Source: Hysterangium stoloniferum (Eukaryota; Basidiomycota; Agaricomycetes; Hysterangiales; Hysterangiaceae). Taken from it: a DNA stretch of 64,000 bases. The notes under the pieces were generated by a model that was given only the letters and a program-made list of their open reading frames with translations, was not told the origin of the DNA and made no database searches. The number at the start of each line of letters is the position of its first letter. Position 1 is the first letter of the stretch. The DNA lies in assembly GCA_015178975.1 (NCBI GenBank), contig WHVD01000085.1, positions 124,001 through 188,000 on the forward strand, given 5' to 3'. This document shows positions 7,865 through 53,420 of this stretch, in pieces. Both the position numbers and the translations under genes were made by a program.

Positions 7865-8303
7865 CCAATGCTCTATCAAAATGTGCAAATACTCAATTCA
7901 CTGCAAGGTAAAATAATCTAAGTATTTGATATTAATCAGTGGCAGCCTTAGTAGACTTAGAACCCCTGAAGTCAAGAGTTTACTTGAATATATGCACCCT
8001 ACTTCACAAAGAAGGTTTTGAGAGCTGCTTGTGCAAGCTTGTTCTTTTTCTGTGAAAATATATACTTAAAATTTGAATAACAATTCACTGATTCAGAATC
8101 TAGATTCAACTTCGATTCTAGCTAGTTTATATATATTTTATACTACAAGGTCTACTGTGATACTAACTTATCAGGGTCTTATTGTAGTCTTAAGGATCTT
8201 GCAAGGATATTCTCAGTATTTATTGATGCTCAACAGCTTTACTGATTCACAATAAATGAGCAATGAAACAGGGATTATTTGTAATGTAATAAACAGTCAA
8301 ATT

Positions 8304-8691: not shown

Positions 8692-9508
8692 TGTTAGGAT
8701 ACACACACAGGGCGGGTCTCCGGAGAAACCCACGGGATATCTGGTAGGACTTGGCTTCAGCTTATAGGCTGCGCCCTCGCTAGATCATGTTGTCCAATTT
8801 CGAACAGGCAGACAGGAATCCTGGGGAGCCCAGGCGGGGTTCGTGGGTCATAGGTCATAGGTCAGAGGTCGTGGGTCGTGAGTCGAGATAGTTGAGAGAG
8901 ATAGATGCGCCAGAGCCTGTGGGCTCCGACTAGTGAGAGTGATGTGAATCAAGCAAGGGTTTAGAGCAGAAAATGGATTAGATTACTGGGGGAAATCTAA
9001 GCTAATTTTCTGACTGGATTGTATGTACAACATCTGCCAGTTTTAATAGACCGTGGAGTGAATGTCATACCGAATCCAGTAATTATGAAATGAAATGAGC
9101 AAAACATAAAACAGGAATAGTAAACACCAAATTGGTGTTAGGAACAGGACGGAACGGAGCAGAGTCCAAATCGTGACAAAGCATAACCCATAACGGGAAA
9201 CAGAGCGGGAGCGGAGTCCTAAATTGTGACAGGTCATTTGACTAAAATGGGAATAGGGCTCAGTTAGAGCAGTGACAGGATTCTAAGTGGGGTCCAGTGA
9301 CTGAGGCGTGGGACAAAGACAGACATAGACAGAGACGGAGTCCAGGGGAAGTCTGGTGACTGATATGTGTCGTAATGAGGTCGAACATAACAAGTCTTGA
9401 CGTATGGAGTCTGGGCGGGAAATCCTACAAACAGACGATTGGTGTGTGTAGGGTGTGGGGACGTACGGGTTAGTGCCTGGAGTCCAACGGGATTGTCTGG
9501 TCGTAACA
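8692..9508 (+). repeat. Solo LTR (family L1) in unit A
   Basis: Starts TGTTAGGATACACACACAGG and ends GGTCGTAACA. It is flanked by a perfect CTGAG duplication (8687-8691 and 9509-9513). It contains the GGCTTCAGCTTATAGGCTGC motif that marks family L1 throughout the window. No coding region of this family is present in the window. Confidence 0.9.
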
Positions 9509-9845: not shown

Positions 9846-10000
9846 AACTACTATCCCTTTGGAAGCCACTGGAATATTCCAGGGAATTTCCGGTTTTTGC
9901 TGTAGTAGCATATACATATGATGACATAATACTCTCACACCTGTGCACATATGACACCTTCGCGTCTTGTGACTGTCACACATTGTGACTCTTGCGCGCC

Positions 10001-10488
10001 TTTTGTGACCATTGCGCACCTCTGTGACCATTGTGCACCTCTGTGACCATTGTGCACCTCTGTGACCATTGTGCACCTCTGTGACCATTGTGCACCTCTG
10101 TGACCATTGTGCACCTCTGTGACCATTGTGCACCTCTGTGACCATTGTGCACCTCTGTGACCATTGTGCACCTCTGTGACCATTGTGCACCTCTGTGACC
10201 ATTGTGCACCTCTGTGACCATTGTGCACCTCTGTGACCATTGTGCACCTCTGTGACCATTGTGCACCTCTGTGACCATTGTGCACCTCTGTGACCATTGT
10301 GCACCTCTGTGACCATTGTGCACCTCTGTGACCATTGTGCACCTCTGTGACCATTGTGCACCTCTGTGACCATTGTGCACCTCTGTGACCATTGTGCACC
10401 TCTGTGACCATTGTGCACCTCTGTGACCATTGTGCACCTCTGTGACCATTGTGCACCTCTGTGACCATTGTGCACCTCTGTGACCATC
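10001..10488. repeat. 19-bp minisatellite in unit A
   Basis: Unit TGTGACCATTGTGCACCTC, about 25 almost perfect copies, grading into diverged copies on both edges. The unit contains the palindrome GTGCAC. Because 19 is not a multiple of three and the unit lacks stops, long artefactual frames run through it. Unit B carries a shorter, degenerate version. Confidence 0.97.
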
Positions 10489-10939
10489 ATGTGCCCTCGT
10501 GACAACTGTCACCTGTTGTGATGGCTGTCACTTGTTGTGATGATTTTCCCACATGCCGTGTAATAAGCACCAGGTGGCCGGTTTGATATTATTATGTAAT
10601 TATTATATTTACTTTTAGTTAACTATAAGTATAATAATATAAATATATATTGTCTTTATCGGAGTTTGAAATGTCATGTGAATATCATGTGATCTTTTCA
10701 CGTGTTGTGAATAAGCGCTGAGTCACCATCATATTAATCAAAAAAGAATAAAAGGTAGAAATTCAATAACTTGCTCAATTTATAAGATAGAAATACAAAA
10801 TAAATTGTATAAATTCAAGATAAATCAAGACAATATTGTACAATTTTATTGCCACAATATAAATACATTTAAACTTTCTTTTTTTGCAATTTGTTAGGGG
10901 AGATTGGTTTAAAAAATGGAAAAGGCTTAGAAATACATA

Positions 10940-11409
10940 ACAGCATTCATCATGACATCGTAAGAGTCTGGGAGTGAACTCAACATGATATTGAAGGAAT
11001 TGGTATCTTCTATCTTCATTCCCATCCCTGCTAATTGCTGATGCATTTTGACCATGTCAAGGTGGAAATGCACATCTTCCCCTTCTTTGCACTTTAGAGC
11101 ATGCATTCTGCACTGCAAATCAACTTGAGCCATTTTCAGCTTTGACTCGAATTCCTGGCAAATGGCCTCCCATACTTCTCTTGCTGTGCTGAGTCTTTGA
11201 AGACTGAGCATAAGAGAAGAGCCAACAGATAGGAAGATCTGAGCTTTGAGTCGTCCTTCATGTACAAGGTAACGATCCAAATGTTCCTCTTGCTTGTCCA
11301 TGAGATCTAACTGGTCATTTGTTAATATAGTTCCTGTGACATATATCGTAGGATCTGGGGGGTGCTGTGCACTTCCGTCGATGTGTTTCAATAGTGCACC
11401 TGATTCCAA
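10940..11409 (-). pseudogene. copia-1 gag remnant
   Basis: The minus-strand frame encodes a UBN2/Ty1-copia gag-type polypeptide: residues DRYLVHEGRLKAQIFLSV, then REVWEAICQEFESK, then LSSLPDSYDVMMNAV. This is the standard order of the copia gag helical domain. It stops at the junction with unit A. It belongs to the broken element copia-1. Confidence 0.8.
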
Positions 11410-13118: not shown

Positions 13119-15178
13119 ACAGCTTTGAAGTGTCTGTTCTATGGACAATGTTGGGTTCCTTGACTTGTCACACTATGTGGACTTCCTTTTATTGTTTTTG
13201 AGGAAGGTGGTGAGTCCTTTTGAGTGCTGTCCTAATAATAGGTTCAGGTGTCAACAAGGAACCATGGGTAGAACTGCATGCTGGACAATTACTGTCAGGT
13301 GGGAAGCCAGAATGGTTGCTATGATGTGATGGTGGAAAATCATATCAGAGCTACAGTATGCTGAGAACTCAGAGGTCTGTGTGGCAGACCAATGTAACTG
13401 TGATGGGAATTGGGGGGCCAACTACTATGTGAGCTGGGCATTTGTGTTGCCAATCTACCACCACTGGTCATTCAAGTTTGAGTTTGAGTCTGAGTTTGGT
13501 CACTCTTGGTGACTTCTGTGTTATTCTACATATAATCTATTATAACAGCTTATGAGCCTTGGCTTCCACCAAATATCCCCCAATTTCACATATTTCCCTA
13601 CTCAGTATTCCTATTCTGACACTTCCTGAACCCTTCCATCCAACATCATGTCCTCTAGTCTTACCTCCATCTTCTCTAGTGCTCCTTTCCTTGTTTAGGA
13701 CAACTACTATGGATAGAAGAGTGCGATGAAGACATGTTTCCTATGTGTTGTCTTCACCTAGATCACTGATGATGCTGCTGCTGTTGTCCCTGCAGATAAG
13801 GTCACAGGATGGACAGGCAGCCTTCTTCTTCTATTCTTCTCTCTCCTCAACCCTATTCAAAGGTGTCCAATATCAGCTCTGGATTGGCATCCTGGAAGGC
13901 TGGTCATGGCTATTTTTAGACATCTACCATGGGCTGTGGGGTCAAAGCTGTAGAAGCTTCATGGTGACTAAGCAGAATCCTTCCACAGCTATTGAGGTAT
14001 ACATCCAATCAATTTAGAAGTCTTGTCAAGTGCTGAAAGATCTTGGAGTTCCTCAGTGATGTTTTTATTGGTAACACTATTCTTGTTGGTTGTCATCCTT
14101 TCTACCACACCACCCCCACTAGCATTCTTACTGCCAAGAAAACCTTCATTTTCTGATATCATTGATGCTCTGATGCTCTGATTGCTTCCTCCACTTTAGT
14201 TATCAATATCAAAATTGACCCTATTGAGACTTTATTTGTAGCCTAGACTGGGGAACTACCAGAGGAGGATAGTCACAATTCATTGAATATACAAAACTTT
14301 ATGGAAAAATCCTCATATTTTCAAATGAGACTATTTCCTCTGGCTATGACTATATGTTTTAGGGGTTTATATTTCATTACCCCAAAATTTCATCTTTAAG
14401 GCTTGTATGTTCTTTTAAAATATGCACAAATGTCATGGTCAAACCAGATTATCTGGGTTGTTACCTAATATTAGGGATAAAATGCATTTTCTAGTATCTG
14501 TGACTTTAAAATATCCACAAACACTCATAACATCTCTTTCAAATATTTTTCTCTCACTACTCTCACTACTTCAGTTTCTCTAGCTGTGTTTATAATATTG
14601 ATAATAAATATTCATTTAGAAAAATAAATTTAAAAAATTCAGATACAATTGTGATCTTTCTTAACCTCTTGCAAGTATGGTACCTTGCTGGGCAATGGTT
14701 AAGCATCACTTGTTTGATCTATCAGTCAATCCCTGGGTTATGTTTTATCAACCAGGTGTATCCCAAACTCAGCTGTGGCAACCCAGGCAATCACTGAAAA
14801 TGGGGTACGTTTGCTATGATCCTTGTATCACAGAATTAGGTCCACCATGGAGAAGGGCATGAGGGTGCAGAGGGATGTGCTACAGGCATCTGGGAACCCT
14901 GCAGTGAATTCCAGGAGTTCCTAGATAGCTATGCATGGGCTACACAAGATGTGCATAGGGACTATAAGGAGGAATTAGGAAGCAAAGAGTCCAAAGGATC
15001 TGGGGGATTCAAGGAGACTGTGGGGGCCAATAAGGTTCATAACTTGGTAAAGGAAAGGAGAGAAGAAGATGCTATATATGATGTAGTGTAATAATGAAAA
15101 CCATAATTATTATCTTCTTTTGAAAAAAAAAACTGAATTGGGAAGACTGTGGGTAATCCATCTAAAAAAAGACATAAG
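13119..15178. other. Old AT-rich DNA without an intact gene
   Basis: No frame longer than about 90 codons and no recognised family. Possible retroelement-gag-like residues occur on the plus strand near 13650-13760, too weak to call. A stretch of about 110 bp at 14556-14665 recurs in inverted orientation at 32620-32735. Confidence 0.4.
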
Positions 15179-16264: not shown

Positions 16265-17097
16265 TGTTAAGGGCATGTACATGGCAGGTTTCTCGAGAAA
16301 CCCGCAGGAAAGCTAGTAGGACTTGGCTTCAGCTTATAGGCTGTGCCCTCACAAGATCATGTTGTCCAATTTCAAACAGGCAGATATGAAACCTGGGGAG
16401 TCTGGGCAGAGTTTGTGGGTCGAGGGGTCATAGGTTGGAGGTCATGGGTCAAGAGGTCGGGGAGTCAAGATAAATAAGTCAGAGGTTGAGAGATAGATGT
16501 GTCAGAGCCCATGGGCTCCAACTAGTGAGAGTGGTGTAATTCAAAGAGGAGTTTAGAGCAGAAAATGTACTAGATTACTGGGGAGAATCTAAGCTGATTT
16601 TCTGACTGGATTGTATATACAGCATCTGCCAGACTATAGACTGTGGAATGAATAACATACCAAATCCAGTAATAACAAAATGAAACTAGCAAAACATAAA
16701 ATGAGATAAGTAAACACCAAATTTGGTGTTAGGAATGGGATGGAATGGAGTGGAGTCTGAATCGTGACAGGTCATAAACCATAATGGGAAATGGAGTGGG
16801 AGTGGAGTCCGAATTGTGACAGGTCATTGACTAAAATGGGAATGGGGCTCAGTTAGAGGGATGATGGGTTTTCTGAGTGGGGTCCAGTGACTGATGTGTG
16901 GGACGAGGTCAGACATAGACAGTGATGGAGTCTGGCAGGTATTCTGGTGACTGATACATGACATAACAAAGTCAAACATGGACAAGTCTGATGTACAGAG
17001 TCCGGCAGGAATTCCGGTAAACTGACAATTGGTGCATATAGGGCATGGGTGCATATGAGTTAGTGCCCAGAGTCTGGCAGGAATTCCAGTTGTAACA
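16265..17097 (+). repeat. Solo LTR (family L1), diverged copy
   Basis: Starts TGTTAAGGGCATG and ends CCAGTTGTAACA, flanked by CCTTG and CCTTA. Compared with the copy at 51123 it has lost many CpG sites to TpG or CpA, so it is an older member. Confidence 0.85.
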
Positions 17098-18640
17098 CCT
17101 TATGACACAAATTGAATTTTATTGACATTTGTCAAAGAGCAATCAAAGTTCTTCTACAATGTTGAGTACAGGATGCCTCATTCAATGAAGTATTGTTTCA
17201 TCCTGATGGTGAAATGTGAGGCTAAAATAGGACACAAAGCTCACACCTAGATATATTGAAGAGATCATGAATAAAACTTGAATTGGTAATACAATATATC
17301 ATGGACTTTCTGACTGATTACCCTCTGTGAGGAGTATGCTTTTACCACAGTTTCATTGTGGTAAAACACTCCTTTTATTTTATTTATATTTTACACATTT
17401 TATTCATATTTTTCTATCCTTTATATTCTTCGAATATTGCACCATTTCATTAGTTCAAAGCTTTGTGTATACTTGCAGGTGCACTCGGCACCAAATGAAA
17501 CTCAGACACACTTTTACCCAAGCACCACCACTCGTAAGACACAAACTAGGTCTACAGTGAGTGGTGATCAGGGTAACATGTCAGCTACCACATAGGTAGC
17601 ATTATCTGAGCTAGCGAACACTTCTGGCCTCGAACTATAACAGTTGAGGCCTCCACTCGAGTCATCCTTCTTCCCATTCTCCTCATTTCTTCATATATAG
17701 AACAGTCAGAACTTCCACCACTCTTCACACCCTCACTCCTTTCATTGTCCTTTTATGCCTTTTAATGTGAATCAATGACTATGGTATGATATAAAAATGT
17801 AATCATGAATGATGTCAAACTGAGACAAGTTGGAAGTTGAGTCAGAAATCAAGTTGAAGACAAGACAAAGGAAAGTTGAAAGAAAGTTGGGTCTAAGTAT
17901 TGTCATAATTGATCTTGTATATTTATAATGCCTTGAATAACAACTATCCCAACTCTAAAATGTTGGATTTCGAGCATCATCCAAGCTCATGTTCCTTTGT
18001 TCCCTTCCCCTATTGATCCATTATTTCCCTTTTTACATTCCCATTGTCTTCCCCATACAGCATTCTATTGTTCTTAGGGTTTATATATATAGCTACATGT
18101 GAATATAGCTCCCTGCGTGATTGTGAGGGTCTTCTGCTACCCGAGTACGTAATAGAGACATGCATATTTAAACATAAAATGTTCATGATTTGAATTGTAC
18201 TGTCAGCAGTGTCTGAGGTAGTATAACTACCAATAAGTCAGAGATCAATCACTTAAATAGTGGGATTGGCATCTGGACACTCCTGTCTTCTCACATGTAC
18301 AGTTTTATGTTGATGCTTCAAGAGGAACAAATTGGGGATTATTCCAAGCCAAATATAATAGTGTTTAAGGACATTATTATAAGTATTCTGGCCCAAAAGA
18401 GAGACTGACTCATGTACATGTCTTTTAGGTTCAATTTCAAAAAGTATCTAAAGTATAGAATTATAAATAATTAATAAAATTTAAATAAGTTTCTCAATTA
18501 GATCACATGCTCTGATAAATATTTAGACTTGTTGATACAGGAGAGAGTGGTGGGGTATATAGAGGGCTTGCTCACACAGGTTCACCCCTTGTTCCCTGTC
18601 AATAACTAGTAGTGTTATTATATAACACGAATCCTTTAAA
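17098..18640. other. Intergenic, no gene seen
   Basis: AT-rich sequence without convincing frames. A short stem (CCACAGTTTCATTGTGG) lies near 17345-17361. Part of this stretch is the 3' flank of the kinase-fold gene at 18646. Confidence 0.4.
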
Positions 18641-18645
18641 AGGTA

Positions 18646-20484
18646 TCAAGATAGAAAGAAGGAGAACGATCCATCTTTGTAAGGAAATGAGCCGCCATTT
18701 GCCTTATCGTCCCAATTCCCCTCTCGCTCCTTCAACGCAGTCAGTGCCCTGGAGAACTCACTTTCTGGCACCCACCCATCACCACCACAACCGAGTTTGT
18801 CATCCAAAGAAGTAATGGATGTTTGGTATTTGTTATACTGCTGGAATTCTTGGTCGTGATTTCGAACCTCATTATCTGTAAAATGTATCGGACACTGGGT
18901 ATCTTCATGCGCAAATTTGTCCCAAACGTTTCGGAGGTCCAGAAGCGCTTGTCGTAGTAGTACGGGACTGTCGCTCCAGGATCTGAGCACACGGTACGGC
19001 AAAAGCGCTAGCTCCGCGCCAAAAGGCATCGCACATGCAATATTCCTCCTCTCGTTCTCCTCCACAATCTTCTGTTCATATACTTTATGCCTCATTGCGA
19101 GCTTCAAATGTATGCGATAAAGTTCTTGCTGCTCTGAGCTCAACATGGATACATGGCTGGGTAGCTTTGGCGGGACACGACCGGTCGGGATGTCTATCAA
19201 GCCACCGTCATAAGTGAAAAGAGAAGGAAATGTGGCTTGCATGCAGTAAGGAGCTATCGTGCTATGCTGCCAGTCAATTAGGCCTCGGACCTCTGCCGGA
19301 CCCTCCTCCGCAACCAACAAATTTGAATGGCTGAGGTCGGCATGCCAGAGAGTAGGGGTAGTCAGTATATGCGGCGGTATGATGTGCGGAATCGCGAGGG
19401 CAAGCATATCCAAAAGTTTGATGTGAGTAGTCGGGGTTGTCAAATGGGAAACGGCGACATCGGGAGGATGAGTGGTGAGAAGCATGGAGAGTAATCCAAG
19501 TATGCTCTGAATCTACAGCAGCAAGAACAAAGGAGCCCATATCAGGCCCTGCCAATCAGTGGAACAGTCAGCCAATCCCTGTATCAGATGAAATAGAAGA
19601 GGAATTCACATGGACCATGATCATAAATCATTTCTGCTCGTTCTGACCGCCACCATTGACGATCCGCTATTGGACCAATACGATACTTCTCCTTCGCTGC
19701 ATCGAGCTTTCTAAGTAGCTCCGGATTGTGGCTTGGAAGAGAATCCGGGCGAAACAGTGGGCGATCGCGTAAATCGGCTGGTACATCATCCCTAAAATAG
19801 AGGCTGCCTATCTGCGAAAAGGGTGCACACTCAAACTTACATTCTATATCAAAGACACCGTTGAGAAGTGGAGAGACTTGGGGTGCTTTCGCAATATGCA
19901 ACCAGCGGTTATGGGACTCTACCCCAGACAACTTCTCCATGATAATATACTCGGCACCGACAGAACCTGCAGTAGCATCTGCGTTCCATGCGAATACACG
20001 TGGTGCATGTATACCAAGAACTTCACGCACGAACTCCAACGTGGCTACCTCACTGGCGGTAGTGAAGAACGGAGCTCCTGCAAGGGCGGTCGGGAAGCGT
20101 ACAATTGCTTCCATCCCATTATCAAAGTTAAGAGCAAAAACCTTATTATATGATCCTATGGAGTAGGTCAACTTAGATTATACATAGAACGCTAAGGACA
20201 TACCTTCCCCTAGTTTCTTGAGCGATACGCAGCGTTTGGCTCCAACTGCAGCACATGCTACGTGTTGTATCTCATCAACGTCAAATTCGACATATCGTAA
20301 TGCGGTCTCTAACATCTCATCGTATTGAGAACCCATGAGGCTGGCAGAATCACTCACGCTCTTCCTCGTTGTATAACCACCGCCCACTAGTGTATTTGAA
20401 GAGGTCCACTTGCTGAGACCTTGTGAATGGAACAGTCCGCGAGAGACCTGATAGTTTCTGAGCGGCCTTAAAAATTTGTTGCAT
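18646..20484 (-). CDS. Aim9-like APH kinase-fold protein
   Basis: Four exons on the minus strand: 20484-20358, 20308-20204, 20155-19610 and 19548-18646. Introns of 49, 48 and 61 nt have GT...AG borders and phases that keep the frame. The protein (about 560 aa) has the family hallmarks FKYTSGRWLYNEEE near the start, LGEGSYNKVFALNFDNG (nucleotide-binding loop), VGAEYIIMEKLSG (hinge), HADLSHSNLL (catalytic loop, HxDxxxxN) and LIDWQ (metal-binding Asp). Aim9/Fmp29 relatives in yeast are mitochondrial with unknown substrate. MQQIFKAAQKLSGLSR would suit a targeting presequence, which is why I chose that start over an in-frame Met at 20583. The summed exon length is one base out of frame; the shift lies near 19490, where the coding passes from an EHTWITLHA frame to an LLTTHPPDVAV frame. 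This is either a mutation, a sequence error or a splice I missed. Confidence 0.82.
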
Positions 20485-20695
20485 TGCGAGAAGGTTAAGA
20501 TGAGCACTAGCTAGAAAGCTCATTTGAACTCCGACGCAAAAGATCTGCTTACTAACATGACCATGACAGAAACTAAATGCCATTTTTACTCATCAAACCA
20601 GAAATGTCATCCACACTTTTTTGTTGGAATATGAGGAATCATCGATTAGTATGACCTCATACCTTATCTTGTAACTGCTTAGGTTATCACCAGTT

Positions 20696-31949: not shown

Positions 31950-32267
31950 TGTTGTGAAATGAGGGCTTACGCATGCTCTAAGACGTAATACAATTGGGAG
32001 CCAGTGAGGAGCATGTGATTTACAGGTATCTCCATCCCTTTTGTTCCAAAGTCACATATAAATACACCCAAACACCAAGAGCTACCTCAGTCAATTCCTA
32101 TCTACCTGTTGACTGAGGTATGCTTTCTTTGTCTCTTACCGTCAGAATTAGATACTCATTACACTTAGATATAATTATTGTTATAGGTACATACTGAAAT
32201 ATCAGTTGATTCCTATCTACCCATCGACTGAGATATAATTATTGTTATAGGGTCTCCATTGATAATA
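31950..32267 (+). repeat. 3' LTR of copia-3
   Basis: Direct repeat of 27593-27911, followed by the GGTCT duplication. Confidence 0.9.
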
Positions 32268-32619
32268 GGTCTGGCCTTTCCTACATTCTGTCCTGTATAG
32301 GCATCCATTCTTGTTTATACTTTTATATATAATATACAATATTATTCTCCAAGTTTCAAACAGAAAAAGTATGTATTTGTGGCGGAGGAGCTGATTCTTT
32401 AACAGAGGTCCAAATGTTAAATAAGAGGAAATAAGAAATTCTGAGTCTAGGAATAGCTTGCCCCATATATATATATGGTGAATACAAAGTATTATATCTT
32501 ACTTCCTCCCCATTATGGAGTTACATGGCAATTTATTTTTGGGACCAAAGCGGAATTTTTTTATTGATTTTCAAACTCCGCACTACGTACCCGGAACAGC
32601 TGTAATGTTTGATAATAAT

Positions 32620-32735
32620 AATAATCACTTTCTGCATCACAATTGTATTTGAATTTTTTAAATTTATTTTTCTAAATGAATATTTATTGTAAATATTATA
32701 AATATAGCTAGAGTAACTAGAGTAGTGAGAGTAGT
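32620..32735 (-). repeat. Dispersed ~110-bp repeat upstream of recombinase gene
   Basis: It is the inverted counterpart of 14556-14665, sharing ATTTATTTTTCTAAATGAAT and a GTAGTGAGAG tail. It lies just before the DUF3435 gene. The rest of 32366-32800 shows nothing else. Confidence 0.7.
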
Positions 32736-32832: not shown

Positions 32833-35156
32833 ACGATGGCCTCGTCATATAAAGGTCTCCCTCTGGGCTTGCTCACCGCTCCTAAATTCTCCCTTATCGT
32901 CGAACTCTGATGTTGATTGCCTACCCTCTTCACCAACGTCTTCCTCGACGAGCTCGACCGGGAGCAAAGCTGGAGGTTCCGAGAGAGGTCGCAGATGACT
33001 GACGAGGAACATGCCGCCTTTCTCGAGAGAGAAAAAAGTGCGCCTTCGATGGCGCGTCATTGGTCGAAAAACACCAAGCATAATGTTTACTCTATGGATA
33101 AGAAGTGGACTGCGTACGTCGCTAGCACTTAGCATAAGCCTTAGCGAGCTGACTGATACTGGACTCTATACAGATATTGTGCCAAGTATAATCTTGGAGA
33201 TCCCGAAGAAGCGTTGCCAATGACCGACAGGGCAAGAGCAATGGACTTCCTCACCTTCATGTGCGAGAACTATGATATCAATACGACCGACACCCTTTGG
33301 CAGTGCTTTCGGGTCTGGAAGCAACGTGAGTTCCTCCATGTCTATAGGGGTCTGTTGCTCAACCATTATTGTAGTCTACCACCTCTATGTCGGGGAGGAA
33401 TTTAACAGCGTTGATAGTGAAGATGTTTATCACGTATGTGTTGGACCTTGCTTCCCAATCACTACAAACATCGAACTAATACTCTTATCCAGTTCTACAA
33501 GGAGGAAGTCATCCGGGCGTACCGATTCAAGAACTCCCAAACGTGTGTAAAGACTGTCACTGACTCATCGGATCTCCTGGCGATGATGATCCACAATATC
33601 GCCTACGACAAGCTTATCCTCCCCGACGAACGCGTGCGATTGGTTGTTGCAGCCAGCTATCTCATCCTAGGCTATACCGGTTGCCGACCAGCTGAGATCG
33701 TCGACGGTGAGAAGAAACAACCATAACACGTTGGAACGAGCTCTTCGAATCTCGCAATTTGCTTCAGTTAAATGCAGCTTCGGATCCCGAGTTTGAAGAT
33801 GACCTCCCCCGTCAGTCTCCTCGCCGTCCTAATGCTCTCTGCTACGAGGATATCACGCTTTTCGTTTGCCGTCATCCTGACACTGGGGAGCACTGTCTGG
33901 GTATGGCGATCAAGTTTACCCATCACAAAGGTCACGACAATAAACTCAAACCGTAAGTCACTCCTCCTGTTCTCTGTGCCTCGTCGTTCTCAAAGGCTAA
34001 TTCCGATTCCGTGCTGTAGGACTATCTTCTTCTTCTACCAGACTAGAAGAGTCATGTTAGATCTCGTTACCCTCATGATCAGCCTTGCCATCCTCGGTGG
34101 CGCCTTCGAGTCCCAGAACCTGTCGAATCCGTCTTCGCTGCCCAAGGCCCCGATGGCCTCGACTACCTACCTCTGCAGTGGAAAAAGGAATGGCTCAACC
34201 TACCCGTATTCCGGAACTCTAACGACGATTCTTACAAGCCTATGTCTTACCGCACTCTGTACGAGTACACGAAGGACCACTCGCTCAATATGGGCTATCC
34301 GGAGCCTATCGGCCCCAAGGATTGGCGAAGGAATGTAGGCAATACGGCCAACAAAACGACGACGGGACCTGAACGAGATCTCACCATGCGTCATACCGAG
34401 GGATCTAACATCTTCCGCACCAACTACCTCAACCAGGTTGTCGACCACGATATGATAGCTGCAGTGTTGTACGCGCCTAGCCAGGACAGTCTACTCAGGA
34501 AGCTGTCCCACGCTCGAGATCGTCGTGCCAAGCGAGATATGGTTTCTCCAGAGGTATGGGCGGTGTTAAAGAAGGAGGTAGAGGCTCCAGACATCCAGGA
34601 TATGCTGATAAGGAGAGAGGAGTTGAAGGCTGAGGCAAAGGGGCTTTCGATAGAGTAGGTCGAACGCCGGGAGGAGATCAGGACGTTGGTCAAGGCCTTG
34701 ACGAGGAAGATGGCCTCCAGGAGAGCCACCGAGAAGAGGCACGTCATCAGCCGCTACCACAAGTTCTACTTCAAGAAGGCGCCTAAACGTGACCTCGACA
34801 GACAACTCAACGGTGACACACCCATTGAATATACCCCGCCCACTATCGAATGCCAGCTTCCTGAACGTGCAACCGTGGCCATGATTCTCTCCCAGCAATC
34901 AGACAACCTTAACGCTCAGGAGCTTCGTAGCCTTCGTATCGAGGTCTGTTCCTTGTTCGTGAGACTGGGACGTTTGCGGGAGCCTAGTCGTCCTCGGGAC
35001 AAGCAGTTCCTCTCACAGCTTACCGTACCGGCTTCTCAGTCTTCTCCCAGCCACACTCCCGATTTCGACAATGTCCCCTCACCGGAAGCTTTATCCTCAC
35101 CACCTCCCTTTTCGCCTTTGCCTTTGCCTTCTAAGAATAGACATTGTTGTCCATGA
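32833..35156 (+). pseudogene. DUF3435 tyrosine recombinase (Starship-captain-like family)
   Basis: Six exons with phase-consistent GT...AG introns: first exon to 33113, then 33174-33325, 33375-33433, 33493-33706, 33778-33952 and 34020-35156. Family blocks in order are LEREKSAPSMARHWSKNTKH, WKQLYHLYVGEEF, LGYTGCRPAEIVD (first catalytic Arg), YEDITLFVCRHPDTG, KDWRRNVGNTANKTTTG (second Arg), LTMRHTEGSNIFRTNYLN (His and nucleophile Tyr) and DMIAAVLYAPSQDSLLRKL. Members cut and rejoin DNA through a covalent Tyr link; related proteins mobilise Starship elements in ascomycetes and Crypton-type elements. Two lesions are apparent: a one-base frame change near 34110-34125 and an in-frame TAG at 34656. 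The active-site residues remain. The start is uncertain: an ATG in good context lies at 32833, but frame continuity into the body of exon 1 is not clear. Confidence 0.85.
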
Positions 35157-35351
35157 TGCTTTCCAACACTCCTTCTCAGTGTGAACAACAGTTAAGGTAA
35201 GCTCCTCCTCACATATGGAAGTCTGTAATGTATTAGCCTTATTTTAATACTATTTTCCAAAAAAGGGGTCCAATGCTCTATCAAAATGTGCAAATACTCA
35301 ATTCACTGCAAGGTAAATAATTTAAGTATTTGATATTAATCAGTGGCAGCC

Positions 35352-36480
35352 TGTTATGACTGGCCGGACTCCAGGCACTAACCCGTATGCCCCCACGCCC
35401 TCTCTCGACTATCTGGACTCACAACTCACAACCTCCGACCTATGACCTACAACTCACAAACCCTGCCTGGACTCCCCAGGATTCCCGTCCGCCTGTTCGA
35501 AATTGGACAACATGATCTAGCGAGGGCACAGCCTATAAGCTGAAGCCAAGTCCTACCAGATATCCCACGGGTTTTCTCTGGAGACCCGCCCTGTGTGTGT
35601 ATCCTAACAGTCAGTTACTATGTTACTTAGTCTGTTATACCCATCCATGACTCCCTAATAATATGGGTCTTGAATTTTAACATTTTGTGCATTTGCCAAA
35701 ATCGTATTGGCCTCTTAAAAACCATAGAAAGGTGCTCAAAATGTTGCTAAAAAGTAGGTTAGTGTTGCACTAGTATGGTGGAGAGGTGACCTCATTACGA
35801 CACATATCAGTCACCGGACTTCCCCCGGACTCCGTCTCTGTCTATATCTGTCTTCGTCCCACACATCAGTCACTGGACCCCGCTTAGAATCCCGTCACCA
35901 GTCTAATCGAGCCCCATTCCCATTTTAGTCAAATGACCTGTCATGATTTAGGACTCCACTCCCACTCCATTTCCTGTTATGGGTTATGCTTTGTCATGAT
36001 TCGGACTCCACTCCATTCTGTCCCGTTCCTAACACCAAACTTGGTATTTATTATTCCCGTTTTATGTTTTGTTAGTTTCATTTCATCATTACTGGATTTG
36101 GTATGTTATTCACTCCACGGTCTATATAAACTGGCAGATGTTGTACATACAATCCAGTCAGAAAATTAGCTTAGATTCCCCCCAGTAATCTAATCTATTT
36201 TCCCGCTCTAAACCCTTGCTTGATTCACATCGCTCACACTAGTCAAAGCCCATAGGCTCCAGTGCATCTATCTCTCTTGACTATCTTGACTCATGACTCA
36301 TGACCTCTGACCTACAACCTACAACCCATGAACCCTGCCCAGACTCCCTGGGATTCCCATCCGCATGTTCAAAATTGGACAGCACAATCTAGTGAGGGTG
36401 CAGCCTATAAGCTGAAGCTAAGTCCTACCGGATATCCCACAGGTTTCTCCAGAGACCCACCCTGTGTGTGTATCCTAACA
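35352..36480 (-). mobile_element. Internally deleted L1 element in unit B
   Basis: A perfect CAGCC duplication (35347-35351 and 36481-36485) flanks two partial reverse-oriented L1 LTRs, separated by about 180 bp of other sequence. The left one begins TGTTATGACTGGCC and the right one ends TATCCTAACA. Unit A has the uninterrupted sequence at the matching place (about 7925-7960). A remnant with large deletions. Confidence 0.8.
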
Positions 36481-36942
36481 CAGCCTAAATAGACTTAGAA
36501 CCCCTGAAGTCAAGAGTTTACTTGAATATGTATATGCACCCTACTTCGCAAAGAAGGTTTTGAGAGCTGCTTGTGCAAGCTTGTTCTTTTTCTGTGACAA
36601 CAACTATTAAAATAAGAATAAGAATTTACTGATTCCGAAGCTAGATTTAACTTCAATACTAGCTAGTTTATATATATTTTATACTATTTATCAAACAGTA
36701 AAAATATTTATAAACAGGTCAAAAGATTAGACATAGAATAAAACACTATTTGTCTAATATATGCTTTATTTACACTAACCTACAAGGTCTACTGCGATAC
36801 TAACTTATCAGGAGCTTAATGTCATCTTAAGGATCTTGCAAGGATATTCTCAGTATTTATTTATGTGAATATACTTTACTGATTCATAATAAATGAGCAA
36901 ATAGAACAGGGATTATTTGTAATGTAATAAACAGTCAAATTA

Positions 36943-37303
36943 CTCAACAAGAGGTGACTGAAGTCTTAGAGTACAAATAACAATGTAGAGGGATTATTTG
37001 CAATGTAATTAACAGTCAAATTATTCAACTAGAGGTGACTGAAGTTTTAGATTACAAATAACAATGTAAAGAAAACTAATAATCAGTACTCAATTAAGAG
37101 GTGACTATAGTATAAAGGATTAATACCAGAAGCTCAACAAGAGGTGACAGGGAATCCTGATTGGTCAGAAGAGTGACCAGGGGGTAGGACTATTGTCAGA
37201 AGCTCAACAAGAGGTGACAAAGGGATCCTGAGGTAACTTAGGTCAGCAGCTCAACTAGAGGTAACTAAGTGTTTGTATTTATTTGTCCAACAGCCCAACT
37301 AGG
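36943..37303 (+). repeat. Seven spaced copies of CTCAACWAGAGGTGAC motif (unit B)
   Basis: Motif copies at about 36943, 37023, 37090, 37133, 37202, 37250 and 37291, in the same orientation and order as in unit A, with one more copy. The extra copy comes from a local duplication of about 80 bp (36910-36990 and 36990-37070). Confidence 0.65.
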
Positions 37304-37393
37304 GTGGAATAAACTGCTTGCTGCAGTGGCATACTGATGTGGCTGATAAAATGTAGTAAAGATGATATGTATATATTCAAGGCTGGAGCTGAG

Positions 37394-37671
37394 TGCCAGG
37401 AACTGGAAAACCCGCCAGCCTCCGGGCCCCCGGACCCCATCCTACATGCTCCCGACCCTATATATTGTATAGTTACAACTGGAGCTCCCACCGGAGCCTG
37501 CACGTCAACTTGTTTATGCCTGACTCTCTGTATGCACCCCACCTGTCTGCACCTAACCCTCTATGTCTCATACACCAGTCCTCAGACTCCTCCGGACTCC
37601 AGACTCCACCCTACATATACCGGAGAAACCTCTGTGGGACTATCTGTGGAGCTTTGTTTGGGAACTTAACA
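37394..37671 (-). repeat. Deleted L2-type LTR in unit B
   Basis: Starts TGCCAGGAACTGG and ends GGGAACTTAACA, flanked by a perfect CTGAG duplication (37389-37393 and 37672-37676). It is the reverse-oriented, shortened relative of 5966-7063. Unit A carries a different LTR, in the opposite orientation, at exactly this site. Confidence 0.75.
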
Positions 37672-37984
37672 CTGAGCTCCTTATATACATTTTAGTCTGA
37701 GACATTTAGAAGATTCTAGAAGATTGAATGATGTCATTTAGAATTTTCTAGAATTTTCTAGAGCATTGTGGAAGGTTCTAACTACTTCTAAGACACTATA
37801 GAATATTCTTGGCATAATAGAATATTCTACAATATTCTATCTACTATTTGTATCTATTATCTACTTCCTTTGGAAGCTACTGGAATATTCCAGGGAGTTT
37901 CCAGTTTTTGTTGTAGTAGCAAATATGATAACATAATGCTCTTGTGCCTGTGCACGTATGACACCCTTCGCGTGTTGTGACTGT

Positions 37985-38175
37985 CATGTGCTTTTGTGAC
38001 CATCGTGCACCTTTGTGACCATTATGTGCCTTTGTGTGTGACCATTGCATCCCTTTGTGACCATTGCACGCCTTTGTGACCATTGCATGCCTTTGTGACC
38101 ATTGCGCATCTTTGTGACCATTGCGCACCTTTGTGACCATCACATGCCTTTGTGACCATCATGTGCCCTTGTGAC
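37985..38175. repeat. Degenerate 19/20-bp minisatellite in unit B
   Basis: About nine diverged copies of TGTGACCATTGCRYRCCTT, equivalent to the 25-copy array of unit A. Confidence 0.85.
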
Positions 38176-38659
38176 CACTGTCATCTGTTGTGACAGCTGT
38201 CCATCATTGTGACGATTTTCCCACACACCGTGTAATAAATGCCAGGTGGCTGATTTTATATTATTATATAATAATTATATTTACTTTTAGTTAATTATAA
38301 ATATAATAATATTTATTATAATAATAAATATATATATTACCTTGAATATGCGTGATTATTTCACATCAGATTTTGTCCTTGTCAGAGCTTGAAATGTCAT
38401 GTGAATATCATGTGATCACTCACGCGTTGTGAATAAGTGCTGAGTTGCTGGCATATTAATCAAAAAAGAATAAAAGGTAGAAATTCAATAACTTGCTCAA
38501 TTTATGAGATAAAAATACAAAATAAATTGCATAAATTCAAGATAAATCAAGACAATATTGTACAATTTTATCATTGCGATATAAATACATTTAAACTTTC
38601 TTTTTTACAATTTGTTTAGGGGAGATTGGTTAAAAATCAGAAAAAACTTAGAAATACAT

Positions 38660-39702
38660 AATAATCTTCTTTTGAATGAGTCTCTAGATGCCTGTCTCCA
38701 GAATAAATTTGGGATCAAATGAGAATGCTATGGGTGAGAATGAAAAGGCAATCATTGTTATCACTCCCTGATGTTGAAAAAATCAGTGAGAGCATGAACA
38801 GTCAATAGACACATCATAGTGTTCCAAACAGACATCAGAGGATGTTCTGGGATTCAATGTTAAAAAAATCAAGACCAAGAAACATCTCCTCTTTATACCT
38901 TTCTCCATGAATAAAAAGGGATCATACATCTTACTATGTGAGCCATGTGGACAAGTTGAGCCAGACCCTGGCAATTGATCATGCCCCTACTGCATTGGTG
39001 TCACAACTCCTGATATGGTCAACCCCACAGCACATGCAGTGTCCTTTCTTCTTCAACACTCCTCCTCACTGCAGTACTCCACCTTAAGAATGGGTGTCAA
39101 CCACAGGTATTTGATAACATGTGGATGTCATCATAGGAAGAATGGTGGACACTGTTATCTGCATAGTGTGTGCATGACAAGTGTGCTGACAGACACAATG
39201 AGGGACACAAAGTCAACTGCAGCATTTGGTCACAATAGTGAGCATGTGGGGGGAGAGAAGTAGAAACAGGCCATAGCTAAGCATTCACCACCCACAACAT
39301 CAGTGAGATAGTGATGTGTGTGGTACATCATTACCCAGTATAGAATGATTGAACATGTGTTGTTTTGCCTGCATGCCACATTATAGACCTGCGAAAACGC
39401 GCCAATTCATGTGTCCGAAGATGCTGGCCCAAAATTGGAGGGAGCATTGATCACCATTTTGTTTAATTGTTGAACATTGATCAAAATAAGTGCCAAGTTG
39501 ATGCGAGAGGACACTCATGGAGCGCATCAACGTTAACGAGACGAATTAGGCTCAAATGAGAGCCAACCTTGACCCCAGCCTTTTTGTATAACTGTGCAAG
39601 GATATCGCGAGAAACGTTGACTTCCATCGGTGGACGTGTTTTACTTCGAGCCAGCCCATATCTCTTGAGGGTTGTTCCAACTACGTAGACCTATCTACTA
39701 TC
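38660..39702. other. Intergenic, 3' flank of carrier gene
   Basis: No gene recognised. Base composition becomes more GC-balanced beyond about 39390, consistent with the start of host DNA downstream of the carrier gene. Confidence 0.4.
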
Positions 39703-40818
39703 TCAACCCCGTACATCATAACCGAGCAGGTTCAACACGTACTCGTACACTCCAAATGTAATGATAGCAGACGGAACGGAGCGCATCAGGTGCGGCGTCA
39801 TGCCACCATACAAGCCCGCTAAGCCCTCCTCTGCCCTTACCAATCGGAAACACTGCACAAGGCCGACGTATTTGCGGGTCCCATTCTCTATCGGGGCTTG
39901 TCGTAGCCTCGTCCTCAGCACCTGCGGTTATATTAGACAAGAGAAGATGGGTAGAAGGGAAAGGAAGCTGGCAGACCTCGTGGGGATACGTGACCAAAAC
40001 TGCTGCTAGCTTTGCAGATCCCGCAGCTCCGCTAGTGCCAACCCAACTCTTAACTGCATGACCCCAGGTTAAGTCACCCTGCGCGTTGGACCCAGTCGAT
40101 ATTGGGCGAAATAGCTGCTTCAGCTGTTCGTAGAGAACCAGATGGAACACCGTCTCAACCGTGCCTAGATAACTTGCGCCCAGGCCTTGGTACAGACCAC
40201 GGATGCCCTCCTGTTGGAGGATGTTCCGGACGCAGTTGAGACTGCCTGCATACCGTCGAGCCGTAACGTCAGCCCCTTCTGTCCGAACGTCGAGCTGCAG
40301 CCTTGTCTTGATGAGAAAGACTGGGTTCATCACCGTCGAAACCGTTATAGACGCCGCAACAGCAGCCTGCGCGTGAACCAATGCTGTGTCCTCTGCGCAG
40401 TCTAGCATACCCGCTCCGAGACGCTTGCAGTTGCCATAGACATAGAATTTGAGTGCCATCGAGGGGACCACACCCGAGAGGCTCGGTCCGAGACCACGGA
40501 AGAGGCCACGCCAGCCTTCGACATGGCAGATGTTACGCATGACGCCGGCGGTCTGGAGGACATGACGTGACCACACGCCCAGGAAGGAAGCTGGGACGGG
40601 CTGGGGGGAAAGATGTCGCTGACTCATAGAGGACTGGAATCGAGTTTTTAAGACGTCGAGCGGAGAAGTTAACACAGTAGAGGCTACCCCTGCGGCTCTG
40701 CAGGACGGTGAATGAGGACTTGCACCGAGAATCTGGATGAGGTGACTTACGCGCCAGCGAGAAAATGTTTCTGGTCGGGCAAGTAGGGGAGTTGTCCTGT
40801 TGCAGCGTCTGATGGCAT
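39703..40818 (-). CDS. RIM2: Mitochondrial carrier, Rim2-type pyrimidine nucleotide transporter
   Basis: Three exons on the minus strand: 40818-40751, 40697-39977 and 39921-39703. Introns of 53 and 55 nt have GT...AG borders, and the total is 336 codons including the stop (335 aa). It has three SLC25 repeats with signatures PLDVLKTRF, PVFLIKTRLQLD and YPHEVVLRTRLRQAP. The altered second signature and the third repeat GKYxGLVQCFRLVRAEEG...LYGGMTPHLMRSVPSA are characteristic of the Rim2/SLC25A33-36 subgroup, which exchanges pyrimidine nucleotides (and co-transports iron in yeast) across the inner mitochondrial membrane. The start MPSDAATGQLPYLPDQKHF is followed by FLAGAAAGVASTVLTSPLD, the usual first helix. 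No lesion is seen. It appears to be an intact host gene. The subfamily assignment rests on motif memory, not on a tree. Confidence 0.9.
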
Positions 40819-41960
40819 TGACACCAACTTTGTATCTGTTGCTATTGTTATCTATTCGTCCCGAGGACGGGAGTTCGATGAGTAGCTACTTACTGGGGCT
40901 GGGGAAAAAGCAGTTGAGGAGGATCTTTGTCTTTGTCCATGTTTGGGTGAGTGGACCCCGGTGGACGCGAATCCAGAGGGCCACAGGCTCCATTGCGCAA
41001 AACATGCTGATGGGGACATGAGCGAGCCCCAACAGCATGCCAAACTAATAGTAAATACATGAAAAATCAATCTAAACTAGAGTTTTAGGGCAATAAAGGA
41101 GCAGGAAAGGGTGGGATGGCGGGAAAAAGAAAATTAATCAAGGAAAGGCTGAGCAATCCTTGAGGGCCGGCCACTCAGACGATGGTGGCAAGAGACAAAA
41201 GGCGGCGGGAGCTGACTCCCCGATGGCGGAGCTTAAAAGGGGAAACATTCCCATTACAAAGAACACGTACTAACGGGATTAGTCCGTTCCAGCTGGGTCG
41301 ACGTGCCTTTAATAGGATTTATCAATTAACAGCCCTTGGTTTTCTTGATCTGATCGGATCTCTTCGTGCCGCGTTCTGATCGCGTGTTGGGATGGCACAT
41401 GGCTTCCATGACTACCATGGCTTACCAAAAATCCATTATTTCACTTGCACCGAACTCGGCAATTTTGAAGCTATTCTCACCATTTTCTTTTCTTTTTTGG
41501 TTATATAGGTATATTTTTACATATACTTCTATATTTGAGCAAGTTCTCTCCAATATTGTTGCTGTTTTCAAGTCATCTGGAGTAAGTAGAATCATACATT
41601 TGAGGCTCTAAGGCCATCCCTGTACCCTATACTACTACTATAGCCATACCAATGGCTGTTGAGGATATATGTTTGACAATGATACGATGGGTTACACAGA
41701 AGACAATGTAGCAAATGCTATACCCAACATTACAGATAATGACTATTCACTTACCACAGCCGCCTAGAGAAATGCTGTTCCAAAAGGCACCCTAGGTATT
41801 CAACCAAATTAGAAATGGGAAAATACAATATCTATGTGACAGACTTATAAGACCCAGGTTTGCCATCAGTTATATAAACTGTTATAAGAGCACAAGTTGG
41901 CATCATATGTAAGTCCTTATATATATGTATATATAATCTATCATATAATACTAGACTATA
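40819..41960. promoter_or_regulatory. Upstream region of carrier gene, then AT-rich intergenic DNA
   Basis: 40819-41400 is relatively GC-rich and would hold the carrier promoter. I see no clear TATA box in a fixed place, and the frames on the other strand look like shadows. From 41600 the sequence turns AT-rich and repeat-like. Confidence 0.3.
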
Positions 41961-50342: not shown

Positions 50343-51962
50343 TGTTACAACCGGACAATCCCATCAGACTCCGGGCACTAACCCGTACACCCCCACGCAC
50401 CACACACACCAAATGTCTGTTTATAGGTCAAGACTCATTACGTTCGACCTCATTACGACACATATCAGTTACCAGACTTCCCCCAGACTCCGTCTCTGTC
50501 TATGTCCATCTTTGTCCCACACATCAGTCACCGGACCCCACTCAGAATCCCATCACCGCTCTAATCGAGCCCCATTCCCATTTTAGTCAAATGACCTGTC
50601 ATGATTTAGGACTCCACTCCTGCTCTGTTTCCCATTATGGGTTATGCTTTGTCACGATTTGGACTCCACTCTGTTCCGTCCCATTCCTAACACCAAACTT
50701 GGTGTTTATTATTCCCGTTTTATGTTTTGTTAGTTTCATTTCATCATTACTGGATTTGGTATGTTATTCACTCCACGGTCTATATAAACTGGCAGATGTT
50801 GTACATACAATCCAGTCAGAAAATTAGCTTAGATTCCCCCCAGTAATCTAATCCATTTTTCCACTCTAAACCCTTGCTTGATTCACATCACTCACACTAG
50901 TCGGAGCCCACAGGCTCCAGCGCATCTATCTCTCTCAACTATCTTGACTCACGACTCACAACCTCCGACCTATGACCTACAACCCACGAACCCTGCCTGG
51001 ACTCCCCAGGATTCCCGTCTGCCTGTTCGAAATTGGACAACACAATCTAGCAAGGGCGCAGCCTATAAGCTGAAGCCAAGTTTTACCGGATATCCCGCAG
51101 GTTTCTCACGAGACCCGCCCTGTGTTAGGATACACACACAGGCCGGGTCTCCGGAGAAACCCGCGGGATATCCGGTAGGACTTGGCTTCAGCTTATAGGC
51201 TGTGCCCTCGCTAGATCGTGTTGTCCAATTTCAAACGGACGGACGGGAATCCCGGGGAGTCCAGGCGGGGTTTGTGAGTCGTAAGTCGTAGGTCATAGGT
51301 CGTGAGTCATGAGTTGAGATAGTTGAGAGAGATAGATGCGCCGGAGCCCGTGGGCTCCGACTAGTGTGAGCAGTCTGATAAGAGTGGGGTTTTAGGGCGG
51401 AAAATATATTAGATTACTGGGGAGAATCTAAGCTAATTTTCTGACTGGATTGTATGTACAACATCTGCCAGTTTATATAGACCGTGGAATGCATGACATA
51501 CCAAATCCAGTAATAATGAGACGAAATGAGCAAAACATAAAATGGGAAATGTAAACACCAAGTTGGTGTTAGGAATGGGATGGAACGGAGCGGAGTCCGA
51601 ATCGTGACAAAGCATAACCCATAACAGGAAACGGAGTGGGAGCGGAGTCCTAAATCGTGACAGGTCATTTGACTAAAACGGGAACGGGGCTCGAGTAGAG
51701 CGGTGACGGGATTCTGAGCGGGGACTGGTGACTGATGCGTGGGATGAAGACGGACATAGACAGAGACGGAGTCCAGGGGAAGTCCGGTGACTGATATGTG
51801 TCTTAATGAGGTCGAACGTAACGAGTCTTGACGTAATGGAGTCCGGGCGGGAAATCCTATAAACAGACGATTGGTGCTTGTAGCGCGTGGGGGCGTACGG
51901 GTTAGTGCCCGGAGTCCGGCGGGATTTGTCCGGTTGTAACACCCTGTGTGTGTATCCTAACA
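50343..51962 (-). repeat. Solo LTR (family L1), split by another L1 LTR
   Basis: The reverse-oriented LTR starts TGTTACAACCGGAC and ends GTATCCTAACA, with a perfect GGTTC duplication outside (50338-50342 and 51963-51967). It is interrupted at 51123-51941 by a forward-oriented LTR of the same family. Confidence 0.92.
51123..51941 (+). repeat. Solo LTR (family L1) nested within an L1 LTR
   Basis: Starts TGTTAGGATACACACACAGG and ends CGGTTGTAACA, with a perfect CCCTG duplication (51118-51122 and 51942-51946). It is the most CpG-rich copy in the window, so probably the youngest. Confidence 0.93.
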
Positions 51963-53160: not shown

Positions 53161-53420
53161 GGAATGAGGATGGAGGTATAACAGAGATGGAGGACTGTCA
53201 GGATTGAAGGCAGAACAGGATAGTGAGATGGGATGACAATATTGGGATGCTATGGGTAATGGTAATACATGTGGGGGTGCCAATAACCATCCCAATATTG
53301 GCACCCCCACATGTATTACCATTACCCATAGCATCCCAATATTGTCATCCCATCTCACTATCCTGTTCTGCCTTCAATCCTGACAGTCCTCCATCTCTGT
53401 TATACCTCCATCCTCATTCC
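53161..53420. repeat. Perfect palindrome, 122-bp arms, 16-bp spacer
   Basis: 53161-53282 and 53299-53420 are exact reverse complements by reading, with the spacer ATAACCATCCCAATAT between them. The same peptide is therefore spelled from both strands. A third, partial copy lies at 53678-53736. Confidence 0.95.

Follow-up and report, generated by a model that had tools for sequence, protein, structure and literature searches.

The DUF3435 gene of Hysterangium stoloniferum described here is best read, with a probability of about 0.85, as a decayed, single-copy, solo relic, with the ends of its own element either lost or undetectable and with unit B, an LTR-like repeat, beside it as a separate insertion. 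Several separate insertions, one nested in another, account for the closeness of recombinase and repeat, which corrects an over-reading. A decayed DUF3435 gene is thereby added for an agaricomycete genome. The window, the whole stretch of 64,000 nucleotides analysed, corresponds to contig C539:124,001-188,000 in an assembly of 111 Mb and 554 contigs. The window is repeat-rich. In the assembly, PF20151 (DUF6533) yielded 150 matches among the best 150 of 402 candidates scored, as suits an agaricomycete.

Structure and setting of the gene

The exons, the flanking repeats and the unit B copy beside the gene are given on the forward (+) strand. Six phase-consistent exons had been proposed by the sequence-only reading. 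Five GT-AG introns of 60, 49, 59, 71 and 67 bp are in phase, with exon 5 starting at 33,778 and the acceptor of exon 6 at 34,019. This part of the model stands, but the frame of exon 6 is broken. Exon 1, taken over the extent of its open frame (32,917-33,113), has a GTACGT donor. Exons 2 (33,174-33,325), 3 (33,375-33,433) and 4 (33,493-33,706) are placed by GT-AG sites and phase. Exon 4 carries the motif GCRPAE with the first Arg and lies inside the profile match of exons 1-5. Exon 5 (33,778-33,952), placed by phase, carries HHKG with the Lys, while DWRR, MRHT and NYL are located in the broken exon 6 (34,020-35,120).

The family assignment made earlier was right. Against PF11917 (curated cut-off 25.8 bits), the segment 34,047-34,655 alone scored 69 bits (E 4.8e-19), and the whole-genome search gave 91.5 bits at the DUF3435 locus, both over the cut-off. 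Exon 5 alone reached 21.7 bits for 33,768-33,950, under the cut-off of the family, and 34,659-35,153 gave a weak match of 14.9 bits (E 0.013). Exon 1, exon 4 and the segment 34,021-34,338, each searched alone against Pfam, had no match. A PDB sequence search with 34,047-34,655 at E up to 1 gave no match, and an AlphaFold prediction for 34,107-34,655, made without an alignment, had a mean pLDDT of 41.2 and was set aside. By its profile homology, the gene qualifies as a genuine PF11917 (DUF3435) tyrosine-recombinase homologue.

A dispersed 110-bp repeat had been noticed near the gene start. It is present at 32,603-32,735 (R) and forms a piece of a longer element, X, cut on both sides. In 16 fetched loci, R extends on both sides into this common element of up to about 1.2 kb, which is absent at the gene locus. 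A second piece of X lies at 14,529-14,655 of the window. R is adjoined by one arm of a foldback repeat (32,266-32,602, the query having ended at 32,602). Elsewhere, the foldback repeat occurs mostly as inverted pairs with arms of about 337 bp and a distance of about 15-31 bp, some pairs being wider. On the right, the gene segment meets the left remainder of another dispersed repeat, T (35,121-35,223). About the first 140 bp of T are missing here, its start being judged from the point where the copies diverge. Neither the right part of X nor the left part of T was found on the opposite side of the gene segment, and a simple insertion site is therefore unreadable. The segment meets a truncated repeat at either edge, R on the left and T on the right. 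A Starship is bounded by direct repeats, sometimes by TIRs, and has its captain at the 5' edge; no such boundary was seen here.

An allelic contig with an empty site was looked for via the nearby mitochondrial carrier gene (39,719-40,885). None was found, because this gene is single copy in the assembly. A Pfam scan of ten other frames of the window gave matches for five, which represent the mitochondrial carrier, an APH-like protein, a Helitron piece, a DDE_1 piece and a copia-type gag. The APH-like phosphotransferase region (18,496-20,613) is matched by a 92% copy on C530, with further, partial copies on C172, C535 and C24. A perfect inverted repeat with two 125-bp arms and a 10-bp spacer is located at 53,161-53,420.

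According to one alternative, the gene is a captain relic, left by a cargo-carrying Starship-like element in H. stoloniferum. Captains belong to the same Pfam family, and for a basidiomycete, Tremella fuciformis, the presence of Starships has been claimed (PMC13066641). However, an element boundary was detected at neither side, and the five frames with a Pfam match are the carrier, the APH-like protein and transposon pieces. PF12520 (DUF3723) had no match, but its controls were silent as well, and the result says nothing on absence. A captain relic is unlikely. If it were true, DUF3435 elements would once have moved in the agaricomycete lineage and then died out. Few papers on DUF3435 outside the ascomycetes were found in the literature searched, whose scope falls short of all print and of the main Starship papers.

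Lesions, residues and copy number

Family homology in exon 6 runs to profile position 129 in the frame of exon 5 and then onward in another frame. The change of frame lies at about 34,105-34,125. Exons 1-5 joined scored 27.7 bits against PF11917, and 42.9 bits over profile positions 20-129 when the exon 6 frame continuing them was added. Exon 5 together with a read crossing into the second exon 6 frame yielded 109.7 bits in one stretch. An alternative acceptor at 34,060, the only in-frame one tried, was rejected as a rescue of the frame; exon 5 joined to it reached the lower score of 84.6 bits, in two stretches separated by a profile gap. The second exon 6 frame is interrupted by an in-frame TAG (34,656-34,658). 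Upstream of exon 1, two in-frame TGAs (32,908 and 32,914) stand between an ATG at 32,836 and the open frame. This ATG would therefore enter the gene only via a further, unproven intron. The final 36 bases of the proposed CDS (35,121-35,156), comprising 12 codons with the stop included, belong to the dispersed repeat T. As read from the assembled letters, the gene is not intact. Errors of assembly could underlie the frame change and the TAG, and a shortened but spliced product may arise from the gene.

Active-site residues were aligned by hand, without a family alignment. The R in GCRPAE, the K in HHKG, the R in DWRR (KDWRR), the H in MRHT and the Y in NYL fit the tyrosine-recombinase (YR) set. 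In the same alignment, Lys or Asp stands at the position of HhpA Y381 and Sanctuary Y424 (or of the His of HxxR). The putative active site of Sanctuary comprises R260, A263, K308, Y424, R427 and Y458, and HhpA Y381 and Y416, at the positions of Y424 and Y458, are reported as necessary (PMC12506042). The Tyr or His of the Y/H-x-x-R motif is probably lost. The earlier claim of retained catalytic residues holds for the five fitting residues, but catalytic retention is in essence wrong for a gene with a frame change, a TAG, repeat T as C-terminus and this probable loss. Since the five introns are in phase and most YR residues are kept, the decay is probably not very old.

These same two features would suit an intact and active gene, with assembly errors or unseen splicing accounting for the frame change and the TAG. 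Such a gene is very unlikely. It would have to accommodate two separate lesions in exon 6 besides the two upstream TGAs, the loss of homology through the sole in-frame acceptor tried, a C-terminus made of repeat T, and a Tyr/His position that is not kept in the hand alignment.

A PF11917 profile search of the whole 111-Mb assembly returned only the DUF3435 locus itself. Whole-assembly searches with the catalytic part and with exons 1-5 found no second copy. The gene body, searched as DNA (best 40 of 74 candidates scored), matched only its own locus and, at the 3' end, repeat T. These copy searches score the best candidates and ignore introns, and very diverged copies could escape. No relative of the catalytic part was found in genome_contigs (seven pattern matches, none confirmed) or viral_contigs (none). 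A single copy would be expected if a DUF3435 recombinase had been domesticated as a host gene, but the broken frame and the repeat-derived end make domestication highly improbable.

For a decayed solo relic, the preferred reading, the following course is proposed. The gene most likely formed part of a mobile element inserted in the past. It would then have gained the frame change and the stop codon, and a rearrangement would have joined its flanks to truncated dispersed repeats. The ends of the element were presumably lost rather than merely unseen. Site-specific recombination activity would be at most a past property of the gene.

The nest of T, S and unit B

Unit B had been described as starting about 70 bp past the end of the proposed CDS at 35,156. 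A repeat does start there, but it is repeat S (35,224), and the LTR-like insertion lies within S. S (35,224-38,664) is placed inside T and interrupted by unit B. Its extent was obtained by comparison with other copies, and its end at about 38,664 is approximate; the other copy in the window ends at 10,942, with a matching place in L066. T resumes after S at 38,665-39,448, as seen in a comparison of T loci, seven of which are listed among 14 fetched. Five of the seven (L031, L032, L034, L037 and L038) run from the match to 35,121-35,224 to the match to 38,665 and beyond, while L040 and L043 are not continuous across the position of S. The S position is read through in T copies, and T is therefore the right neighbour of the gene. 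A search for clean target duplications around S did not establish any. Tandem arrays of 19 bp occur in both S copies of the window, at 9,890-10,630 (very regular) and at 37,980-38,245.

Unit B proper (35,352-36,480) is a solo-LTR-like insertion, TGTTATGAC...CCTAACA, with CAGCC flanking both sides. Its target is uninterrupted in five other copies (L011, L017, two in L020, and the window S copy near 7,943), in which CAGCC runs straight into the sequence standing at 36,486 onward in the window. A 5-bp duplication was detected in seven of the eight unit B copies for which both ends were located. In the window, these duplications are CAGCC (35,352-36,480), CTCAG (8,692-9,508), GGTTC (50,343-51,962) and CAGGG (51,123-51,941). 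Outside, they are TGTAT in L024, AGGGG in L025 and GCACG in L027, and L023 is the copy without a duplication. Copies with one end only (L026, L028, L029 and the second L024 copy) and single-end pattern matches at window positions 17,097, 28,790, 35,609 and 55,270 were left out of the count of eight. The family is abundant, with 72 matches among the best 40 of 5,939 candidates scored. TG...CA ends, short target duplications that vary among copies (7/8) and insertion-free targets are found together, as in LTR retrotransposons.

The copy at 35,352 measures 1,129 bp versus a typical 817 bp (L025) and contains a second tail-like piece (35,400-35,609). Part of its approximately 310 extra bases is an inverted piece matching the start of repeat T (window 35,601-35,682). 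The GGTTC copy is paired across a nested copy, the inverted unit B at 51,123-51,941 near its 3' end.

Unit B lies in S, S lies in T, and T, shortened, adjoins the gene. T would have come first, followed by insertion of S into T and of unit B into S. As an LTR-retrotransposon remnant of its own, unit B arrived independently of the recombinase gene. The link between recombinase and unit B that had been speculated upon is contradicted by the unit's own TG...CA ends and 5-bp duplication, by relatives at many other places with other duplications, by the occurrence of PF11917 only at this locus and by the insertion-free targets. That the recombinase mobilised unit B or S in trans, as their neighbourhood and the start of S 70 bp past the proposed CDS might suggest, has next to no probability, being contradicted for unit B by its LTR-like ends and varying duplications (7/8) and, less firmly, ruled out for S by the piece of T between gene and S and by the position of S within T.

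Comparison with known recombinase systems

Starship captains are reported to act as site-specific tyrosine recombinases that move DNA at short direct repeats. With HhpA and the Sanctuary YR, the gene has the Pfam family in common as well as, by hand alignment, R, K, R and the nucleophile Tyr at matching motifs. It differs at the Y381/Y424 position, where K or D appears, and in its broken frame; neither boundaries nor an empty site were found at this locus. Compared with a captain, understood as an open gene with the active-site set and both Tyr, it presents a frame change, a TAG and, by hand alignment, K or D in place of the Tyr of Y-x-x-R.

The genome contains other tyrosine-recombinase genes. 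PF00589 at E up to 1 gave 17 matches in the assembly, eight of them over the cut-off and none at the DUF3435 locus. PF00589 matches were located at L058-L065, and several of them fall in open frames roughly 360 aa long. In two of the six loci read (L062 and L064), the longest frame was RT/RNaseH-like by eye. These genes appear DIRS/Ngaro-like, again by eye, and have the tyrosine-recombinase superfamily in common with the DUF3435 gene. They differ in that the PF11917 search gave no match at them, and PF00589 none at the DUF3435 gene.

Crypton-type recombinases possess the GCR1_C domain. Cryptons resemble the present case as a tyrosine recombinase in a fungal genome on a gene-sized segment. In contrast, a Pfam search with the gene at E up to 1 gave DUF3435 only. 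The two kinds of recombinase are described as very distantly related (PMC12134995).

Solo DUF3435 (PF11917) genes of fungi are similar in their PF11917 homology and in standing without a detectable surrounding element. The present gene differs in being disrupted and in lying in an agaricomycete rather than a Pezizomycotina genome.
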